A program made the position numbers and the translations under genes. The notes beneath the pieces are model-generated. The model saw only the letters and a list, made by a program, of their open reading frames with translations, was not told the origin of the DNA and did not search any database. A DNA stretch of 64,000 nucleotides from Cognatiyoonia koreensis (GTDB lineage: Bacteria > Pseudomonadota > Alphaproteobacteria > Rhodobacterales > Rhodobacteraceae). Every line of letters begins with the position of its first letter. The stretch's first letter is position 1. The stretch is from positions 310,001 to 374,000 of the forward strand of contig NZ_FOIZ01000002.1 of the NCBI RefSeq assembly GCF_900109295.1, written 5' to 3'. Shown here piece after piece: positions 36,686-64,000 of the stretch.

Positions 36686-36852
36686 CTGCCCCCACCGTCT
36701 TTGAACCTGAGAGATTCACCCGGTTTCGCGGGCTTGCTCCTTCGGCGGACCAATCAAGGCCTCTCTTCGGCGTTTTATACCCCCACCGGTCCTTTTGCCT
36801 GAGAGTGACCGGGGCGGTTGCTCCTTCGGCGCTGACCTTGCCAGACTCTCCC
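36686..36852 (-). promoter_or_regulatory. Tandem glycine riboswitch upstream of dadA
   Basis: Read on the minus strand, two consecutive aptamers show the family's core: GGGAGAG (36846-36852), CGCCGAAGGAGCAA (36818-36831) and CTCTCAGGCAAAAGGACCG (36787-36805) for aptamer 1; GAGAGG (36760-36765), CGCCGAAGGAGCAA (36734-36747) and CTCTCAGGTTCAAAGACGG (36695-36713) for aptamer 2. The linker is about 15 nt. Aptamer 2 ends about 10 nt before the dadA SD, so translational control is likely. I see no terminator hairpin with T-run between them. Confidence 0.93.
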
Positions 36853-36940
36853 GGCGGACGCGTTTACTGTGGCCAGCCCATATGCCTGCAATTGATTCCG
36901 TGCAAATGATTTCTGCGGGCAAAAGCGGTTTATGGCCCGT

Positions 36941-63009: not shown

Positions 63010-63645
63010 ATGACCCGCATTCTTCCCGGCGTTCTTGCCATGGCGACGATCGTCGTCGCATCCAACATCCTTGTGCAATTCTTTATCGGTGACTGGCTCA
63101 CCTGGGGGGCGTTCACCTATCCGTTCGCGTTCCTTGTGACGGACCTGATGAACCGCATCCACGGCAAAGAGGCCGCGCGCAAGGTTGTTTTCTTCGGCTT
63201 TATCGTCGGGATCATCTGTTCGTTCATAGGCACGCGGGTGTCGGTCGAAATCGCCCCCGACTTCATCGCTCCCGCCGTCACGCTGCGCGTCGCGATCGGA
63301 TCGGCAACGGCATTTCTGGTGGCACAACTGGTGGACGTCGCAATCTTTGACCGTCTACGGTCCGGTGCCTGGTGGCGCGCACCGCTCGCCTCGACTTTAG
63401 TGGGGTCCACCCTGGACACGGCACTCTTCTTCTTCATCGCGTTCTCGGCGCCCGCGTCGGGGATCCTTGGCACCGATCACAACACGGACTTCTTCAACGA
63501 AATCGTCGCCACCCCCTTCGGCACCGACCTCACCCGCTGGATCGGCACAGCGGGCGTTGACTGGTGCGTAAAAGTGGCGCTGGCGCTGGTCGCTTTGGTC
63601 CCGTTTCGCCTGATTGTTGGGCGTCGGGCCGCACCTGTCAACTAA
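63010..63645 (+). CDS. Queuosine precursor transporter (VUT family, YhhQ-like)
   Basis: A 211-aa membrane protein with about six helices. AFTYPFAFLVTDLMNRIHGKEAARKVVFFGFIVG is the VUT hallmark; SATAFLVAQLVDVAIFDRLR and WWRAPLASTLVGSTLDTALFFFIAFS are also typical. It imports preQ0/preQ1-type precursors for tRNA queuosine. I looked for a preQ1 riboswitch in the 88-bp leader and saw none. Confidence 0.9.
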   Translation: MTRILPGVLAMATIVVASNILVQFFIGDWLTWGAFTYPFAFLVTDLMNRIHGKEAARKVVFFGFIVGIICSFIGTRVSVEIAPDFIAPAVTLRVAIGSATAFLVAQLVDVAIFDRLRSGAWWRAPLASTLVGSTLDTALFFFIAFSAPASGILGTDHNTDFFNEIVATPFGTDLTRWIGTAGVDWCVKVALALVALVPFRLIVGRRAAPVN

Positions 63646-63656
63646 ACGCGAGCGGT

Positions 63657-63681
63657 GGTATATTTTTACTTGAAATATACC
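63657..63681. repeat. AT-rich 9-bp inverted repeat
   Basis: GGTATATTT-ttacttg-AAATATACC, perfect arms, 12 bp past the transporter stop. AT-rich and without a T-tail, so an operator for the following transcript is more likely than a terminator. Confidence 0.4.
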
Positions 63682-63734
63682 AAATCTGTGCCAACCTTCT
63701 GGATAGGCGAAACATTTTGAAAGGAGGTGATCCA

Positions 63735-63791
63735 GTGCATCATGAGGTATTGGAGAAGGCAGTCGGGACAACTTATGGGGGTCGCAGCTAG
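63735..63791 (+). CDS. 18-codon mini-ORF with perfect Shine-Dalgarno
   Basis: GTG start 7 nt after GGAGG, encoding (V/M)HHEVLEKAVGTTYGGRS. An alternative ATG at 63742 opens a 21-codon frame (MRYWRRQSGQ...ALG) ending at 63807, but its spacing (14 nt) is poor. The peptide resembles no protein I know. Within the RNA above, translation could control the downstream stem choice. Confidence 0.45.
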   Translation: MHHEVLEKAVGTTYGGRS

Positions 63792-63857
63792 GGCAGCCCT
63801 TGGCTGAGAGAACCATAAGGTGGGAAACCTAACCGACCCACCTCCGAAAATTCAGGG

Positions 63858-63890
63858 AAGGGCCACCCCAACGCCGGGGCGGCCCTTTTT
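63858..63890 (+). terminator. Rho-independent terminator
   Basis: AAGGGCCACCCC/GGGGCGGCCCTT (one mismatch, 6-nt loop) followed by TTT at the end; strong GC stem plus T-run. Confidence 0.85.
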
Positions 63891-63903: not shown

Positions 63904-63942
63904 GTGCACACCGCGTGCACTGGACGTACACCGGGCGTGCAC
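63904..63942. repeat. Four GTGCAC-type palindromes at exact 11-bp period
   Basis: GTGCAC at 63904, 63915 and 63937 and a GTACAC variant at 63926, i.e. spaced exactly 11 bp (one helical turn), with a further TGCAC at 63950. This is between the terminator and the window edge, where the next gene's promoter should lie. The last 60 bp hold no assignable gene; an ATG at 63978 has no SD. Confidence 0.6.
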
Positions 63943-64000
63943 CGCAAAATGCACGACAAACACAAGCGGCGATCAAGATGAAAGTGAACGACCAGATCAC

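Follow-up and report, generated by a model that had tools for sequence, protein, structure and literature searches.

The closest described relative of the small RNA unit at the end of the window, by which we mean the whole 64,000-nucleotide stretch of DNA analysed here, is the Rfam family RF01867, the Caulobacter sRNA CC2171. An earlier sequence-only reading of this DNA knew of no described family with such a layout. This turned out to be wrong, since an Rfam search matched RF01867 end to end (model positions 1-159 of 159, window 63711-63886) with 40.4 bits and an E-value of 3e-7, below the gathering cut-off of 75. The gathering score is exceeded by one of 101 relatives, and at E <= 0.001 the family was matched in 61 of 101 sampled genomes and, among 14 control genomes, in Caulobacter vibrioides only. 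A second match, on the minus strand over the terminator of the window RNA, reached 29.2 bits, so part of the RF01867 scores stems from the terminator. We take the window RNA to be a divergent relative of RF01867 and not a formal member. Both share an identical head, GAAAGGAGGTGATCCAGTG, and a terminator in the same position, and in our own reading the RF01867 consensus can also be read as a GUG frame of 22 codons running to UAA. The structure line of RF01867 pairs CAUUGUC of codons 3-5 with GACAAUG ahead of the terminator. In the window RNA the partners lie elsewhere, with the Shine-Dalgarno sequence (SD) facing CACCTCC and codons 10-11 facing CCGAC, which is the same topology in another register. 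In contrast, the middle of the two RNAs is unrelated in sequence, and in the window RNA, unlike in RF01867, the closing helix includes the SD itself and a hairpin encloses the start codon.

Our literature search returned no paper linking CC2171, Caulobacter and sRNA, and the layout is not described in the titles and abstracts searched, a set outside which the original Caulobacter sRNA paper (Landt 2008) falls. The available parts of PMC4117421, PMC4809877, PMC5107571, PMC11005374 and PMC5082802 do not mention the layout either. By comparison with the window, a family so far classed as a Caulobacter sRNA thus seems to combine complementarity of its SD to the entire 16S tail with a self-made lid and a conserved frame, the peptide of which appears to be of little importance.

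Leader-peptide attenuators of the trpL kind resemble the window RNA as well, combining a strong SD, a short frame, alternative pairings and a terminator. However, the gene downstream of the window RNA is inconstant among relatives, and its candidate antiterminator lacks covariation. In type I toxin mRNAs (tisB, timP and others), the SD is masked by cotranscriptional folding, according to the available part of PMC11295053. Such masking by the RNA's own fold, typical of these mRNAs, is shared by the window RNA, which might be pictured as the SD-masked mRNA of a toxic peptide accompanied by an antisense RNA. In contrast to such loci, the window RNA shows little sign of selection on its peptide, which is not hydrophobic by eye, a consensus scan saw no sigma-70-like site on the minus strand of 63719-63890, and most family genomes hold a single copy; a toxin-like locus is hardly credible here. 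For Staphylococcus aureus, the available part of PMC13009471 describes an extended SD in which bases after the canonical SD lengthen the helix with the anti-SD. There, two extra pairs are formed on ordinary mRNAs, whereas in the window the complementarity runs up to the start codon and belongs to a dedicated small RNA.

Transcription unit, distribution and neighbourhood

As read from the sequence, the end of the window (63670-63890, + strand) is a complete small transcription unit with its own predicted promoter and terminator and a predicted RNA of about 185 nt. It sits between a queuosine precursor transporter gene and arfB:

63010-63645, + strand: upstream neighbour, queuosine precursor transporter (Vut_1; PF02592, TIGR00697), outside the RNA
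63670-63697, + strand: predicted promoter, -35 TTGAAA (63670-63675), spacer of 16 nt, -10 CAACCT (63692-63697)
63857-63890, + strand: predicted intrinsic terminator, hairpin 63857-63888 followed by a T run, -24.2 kcal/mol
63978-64000, + strand: start of arfB (alternative ribosome rescue factor; NF006718, above cut-off), running past the window end, outside the RNA

Transcription would start at about 63704, giving a transcript of about 63704-63890. In a best-site scan that allowed spacers of 16-17 nt only and whose counts come without a shuffled control, the -35 was exactly TTGACA in 88 of 160 distinct family loci and matched at five of six positions in 39 more, and 130 of the 160 combine a 16-nt spacer with a -35 that begins 62-66 nt ahead of the start codon. 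Of the 160 distinct loci, 158 have a hairpin scored as terminator-like; the list of a simple terminator scan lacks the hairpin 63857-63888. Between -35 and -10, 12 of 40 upstream regions of relatives (e.g. that of locus L067) carry a CACA-N3-6-TGTG inverted repeat, perhaps a regulator site. In the gap between terminator and arfB (63904-63942), three GTGCAC and one GTACAC follow each other about 11 bp apart, and triple arrays resembling this one occur at seven other places in the genome. One of them lies shortly before a frame which, by its N-terminus, we take to resemble dihydrolipoamide dehydrogenase. A possible role of the GTGCAC array is that of a regulator site.

With a covariance model (R1) built from 14 relatives, 338 of 394 genomes of the family, taken as Rhodobacteraceae from named contigs, gave a match and the other 56 gave none; one match is listed per genome, except for one genome (G569) with two. 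The stretches listed for those named contigs (the first 80 of at least 119) include Ruegeria, Roseobacter, Roseovarius, Paracoccus, Gemmobacter, Tabrizicola, Cereibacter and Sulfitobacter. DNA similarity gave matches in 42 of 101 genomes, two of them (G096, G098) by the terminator alone. Across the class, the head GAAAGGAGGTGATCCANTGTC was present with at most two mismatches in 91 of 385 sampled genomes, and the reversed control pattern in one. With regard to a mobile origin, plasmid and phage collections held no match to the RNA.

The neighbourhood bears on another reading, in which the RNA would be an attenuator coupled to translation and would control the gene behind it, mostly arfB; the sequence-only reading had offered a peptide-leader attenuator of the gene beyond the window. 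The transporter lies upstream in 139 of 149 family loci, and arfB follows in the same orientation in 107 of 145. The arfB start is found at a median of 46 nt past the terminator hairpin (quartiles 31 and 74, 117 loci; the range of -91 to 511 includes a few misjudged starts or hairpins), and most arfB genes, that of the window included, lack a leaderless-type TANNNT -10, all of which fits an attenuator. However, arfB is missing downstream in 38 of 145 loci, and 24 scored loci of this arfB-less kind reached 48.5-123.6 bits on the model. In at least two of the arfB-less loci (L070, L073) the first recognisable gene beyond the RNA lies on the other strand, presumably deacetylase-like in the former and LysR-type in the latter, and in one relative (G006) neither transporter nor arfB occurs within 10 kb. 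In the class-wide loci looked at, the neighbours varied and the RNA was unlinked to arfB. Moreover, in 23 of 117 loci a TANNNT precedes the arfB start by 6-7 nt, as in a leaderless promoter, against a mean of 6.0 and a maximum of 15 in 500 shuffles; in 17 further arfB loci it stands at 9-11 nt, where the start call may be one codon late. A candidate antiterminator, in which the 3' strand GCCCTT of hairpin P3 (see below) would pair with AAGGGC of the terminator, seemed persuasive from the window sequence and was rejected, as 62 of 100 swaps were as good (118 loci); the swap test of this one candidate thus found no terminator switch. With a predicted promoter of its own, persistence where arfB is absent and no covarying antiterminator, the RNA is very unlikely to be an attenuator of the next gene. 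The other suggestion of the sequence-only reading, an RNA onto which ribosomes load strongly, stays conceivable.

Extended SD and mini-ORF

Two features define the initiation region:

63719-63735, + strand: extended SD GAAAGGAGGTGATCCAG, 17 nt of exact complementarity to the 16S 3' tail
63735-63791, + strand: mini-ORF (MHHEVLEKAVGTTYGGRS), GTG plus 17 codons = 18 codons, stop TAG at 63789-63791

The perfect 17-nt complementarity to 16S rRNA, already pointed out from the sequence, is exact at these positions and occurs elsewhere in the genome only at the 16S gene. The exact complement CTGGATCACCTCCTTTC has two sites in the 3.65-Mb genome, namely the RNA locus and G000:C2:303186, which we took as the 16S 3' end, and one additional site at two mismatches; the 11-mer AAGGAGGTGAT is confined to the 16S site and the RNA locus. 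In relatives from the Rhodobacteraceae, the TCCAG part of the extension also pairs within the start-codon hairpin, so 16S pairing need not explain why all 17 nt are kept. Class-wide, GATCC follows GGAGGTG in 34 of 42 loci, most of which were found by that motif.

Such complementarity might simply serve as a passive sponge, a duplex of 15-17 nt that titrates 30S subunits or traps them non-productively, with the frame only preventing ribosomes from tangling. This would fit the 16S-tail match, the longest perfect one that the genome yielded, and the GATCC kept across the class (34 of 42), and the full pairing, as it reaches the start codon, would be expected to compete with initiation. A sponge with one match per genome would, however, require very high expression, and it needs neither a kept stop codon nor a lid on its own SD. 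We consider it improbable.

The 18-codon frame, proposed earlier from the window, has correct coordinates and proved to be conserved: of 165 family loci offered, three could not be parsed, and 155 of the remaining 162 comprise exactly 18 codons. Among 137 distinct 18-codon frames the start codon is GTG in 134 and ATG in three. Codon 19 (n=158) is TAG in 62, TGA in 60, TAA in 30 and another codon in six cases, and never TGG, while independent variation of the two purines would predict about 24 TGG among 152 (own arithmetic, ignoring relatedness). Since the stop is kept in changing forms and TGG never occurs, the end of translation seems to outweigh residue identity. Similar variation at the three codon positions of codons 2-18 (entropy 0.826, 0.868 and 0.829) suggests at most weak selection on the peptide. 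The third position is somewhat more variable within codons 2-12 (0.464, 0.546, 0.653), as coding predicts, whereas within codons 13-18 it is less so (1.489, 1.458, 1.152). A second frame in the window (ATG at 63743, 21 codons) was discarded, its ATG being present in the window and loci L010-L012 only, of 39 aligned.

Outside the family the frame is kept as well, with lengths of 18 to 58 codons. An in-frame stop precedes the terminator in all 39 distinct class-wide loci, compared to 31 and 30 in the other frames; these loci, all with a scored terminator, remained of 44 offered after two were unmatched and three were duplicates, and they include two outliers of the window's own family (L209, L211). 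The GC content by codon position (0.629, 0.577, 0.693) forms a weak coding-like pattern, so a functional peptide remains conceivable there. In the family f51, the same head is followed in two of four genomes (L218/G111 and L221/G407) by a frame of 56-58 codons that includes a hydrophobic stretch, as though the mini-ORF had been extended into a small membrane or exported protein.

These data would also suit an ordinary small mRNA whose product is the encoded peptide: 18 codons are retained in nearly all family loci, a stop precedes the terminator throughout the class-wide set, several residues are conserved within the family, and the long f51 frames exist. The even variation over codons 2-18 speaks against it, however, as do conserved residues such as VGT that are encoded in paired RNA and peptides that are unlike between families except for the common MS start. 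A small mRNA of this kind is thus quite unlikely.

Fold and closing helix

The region 63719-63850 is predicted to fold with -54.9 kcal/mol (z -4.85), and 0 of 200 dinucleotide shuffles were as stable. Its elements are:

63723-63729, + strand: P0 5' arm, SD core GGAGGTG, pairing with 63839-63845
63731-63754, + strand: Pi, start-codon hairpin, 63731-63738 with 63747-63754; two-sided changes in 2 of 7 modelled pairs
63762-63766, + strand: P1 5' arm GTCGG (codons 10-11), pairing with CCGAC at 63833-63837; two-sided changes in 5 of 5 pairs
63772-63819, + strand: P2, CTTATGG (63772-63778) with CCATAAG (63813-63819); two-sided changes in 10 of 10 modelled pairs, 87.4% of cells paired
63785-63806, + strand: P3, hairpin holding the stop codon; the covariation model covered its two inner pairs only
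63818-63843, + strand: P4, weak alternative hairpin, AGGTGGG (63818-63824) with CCCACCT (63837-63843)
63839-63845, + strand: P0 3' arm, anti-SD CACCTCC, pairing with the SD core at 63723-63729

In several rows of an initial mafft alignment (A1) the anti-SD is out of register by one column, and RNAalifold run on it missed P0 and P2. Consequently, a hand-picked seed of 14 sequences (A4) and the covariance model R1 derived from it were used; the resulting alignment (A5, 100 of 165 family loci) is fitted to the structure and hence leans towards it. Covariation in this alignment supports the predicted fold. Among its 97 distinct sequences, 94.3% of cells are paired, against 34.9-54.2% with slid partners, and two-sided changes occur in 18 of 31 pairs, mostly in P1 and P2, a number that 0 of 500 shuffles reached. 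The match of CACCTCC to the SD core had been placed correctly by the sequence-only reading, and it is conserved, with 99.5% of cells paired over the 97 distinct sequences. Here changes fall on the anti-SD side only, never on both, with the SD itself fixed; support for P0 thus consists of one-sided changes, and a swap test is uninformative on it. The competing hairpin AGGTGGG/CCCACCT (P4), suggested in the same context, lies where it was said to lie and is weakly supported: the own partner yields -8.21 and swapped ones -7.54 kcal/mol, and none of 100 swaps did as well, in a test that ignored relatedness and used 118 of 160 distinct loci, the other 42 being unparsed.

Minimum-energy folds of 39 relatives contain P0 in 37, Pi in 36, P2 in 37, P3 in 37 and P1 in 25 cases. 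P1 is missing from the remaining 14 folds, and in L031 and L034 P0 is missing as well. L031 has GTCGT and ACGAC where the window has GTCGG and CCGAC. These folds bear on the reading as a conventional trans-acting sRNA, in which a free 3' arm with CACCTCC would mask the SDs of target mRNAs and the frame would be secondary. Promoter, size, fold and terminator fit an sRNA gene, the Rfam relative RF01867 is typed as sRNA, and the anti-SD copy is kept. In 37 of the 39 relatives, however, the predicted fold pairs this anti-SD to the RNA's own SD, and we regard the trans-acting alternative as unlikely.

Folding of the 39 sequences further indicates that the SD core is 57% unpaired within the first 100 nt compared to 6% in the full RNA. 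Opening it costs 6.3 kcal/mol on average (range 1.6-15.2), while pairing with 16S rRNA yields between -12.6 (7 nt) and -26.9 kcal/mol (15 nt).

A comparable lid is predicted class-wide. Codons 2-11 paired with the 32 nt before the terminator at -24.15 kcal/mol on average, against -17.2 kcal/mol (sd 0.71) when partners were swapped, and 0 of 5000 swaps were as low; the true partner ranked best or second best in 13 of the 30 loci. The set offered comprised 31 loci, namely 29 genome loci of 25 families, four of them represented twice, and two viral-labelled contigs; two of the genome loci came from the window's own family, and one of the two contigs (L251), which was without a scored terminator, was dropped. 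The pairings include CATTGTC with GACAATG as well as ATGAGATT with AATCTCAT. Ensemble folds contain a lid of at least 5 bp in 19 of 27 class-wide loci. In these models the lid is placed over the SD in Rhodobacteraceae and over the region just past the start codon in most other families, where the SD is mostly unlocked (46% unpaired in the complete RNA). The difference between nascent and complete RNA is small class-wide, with unpaired fractions of 0.41 and 0.46 for the SD and of 0.42 and 0.32 for codons 2-11. Thus a model in which the RNA is first open and then locked is best supported in Rhodobacteraceae, and outside the family a gate may act after SD binding and not on the SD.

A proposed ribosome-gated riboregulator

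Tentatively, and with somewhat less than an even chance of being right, we propose that the locus is a stand-alone RNA gene of about 185 nt, a divergent relative of CC2171 (RF01867), which would work as a ribosome-gated riboregulator. The anatomy behind this proposal can be read from the sequence itself: promoter, terminator, an SD matching the whole 16S tail, a kept short frame whose peptide shows little sign of selection, and a closing helix, in which the last segment before the terminator pairs with the region of initiation, namely the SD and codons 10-11 in Rhodobacteraceae and early codons in other families. From it we infer transcription, loading, gating and any downstream effect. As the closing arm is transcribed last, the nascent RNA would be open, and 30S subunits could load and translate the mini-ORF, while the completed RNA would lock through that arm. 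The SD is predicted to be open early and 16S pairing to yield more than opening costs, which suggests early loading of 30S subunits and a later forcing of the lock by the long 16S complement. Ribosome supply would then decide between a loaded and open state, with the 3' arm and its anti-SD copy free and the fate of the RNA altered, and a locked one.

A further step would be to regard the RNA as a sensor of ribosome availability across much of Alphaproteobacteria, one that uses full 16S-tail pairing to probe for free 30S subunits during transcription and otherwise locks, with the peptide as a by-product. We find this broader version doubtful. If the RNA does sense ribosome supply, it would gauge translation capacity directly; even at a minimum, it offers a simple model of how one small RNA could read a cell-wide resource.

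Some minor observations concern variants of the RNA and the rest of the window. One genome (G072) carries two differing copies of the RNA (L197, L198) with differing frames. The head pattern also occurs on six viral-labelled contigs, which are perhaps host DNA, once as the SD of a 71-codon frame (L253) and five times with frames of 14-33 codons. Three of these contigs (L249, L250, L252) share a frame of 14-16 codons, MSY(P/S)KRCHLA.., with CACCTC inside the frame, where it can pair with the SD locally; by sequence this is a third layout. Far upstream in the window (36777-36863, - strand), a glycine riboswitch aptamer (RF00504) was matched with 63 bits.
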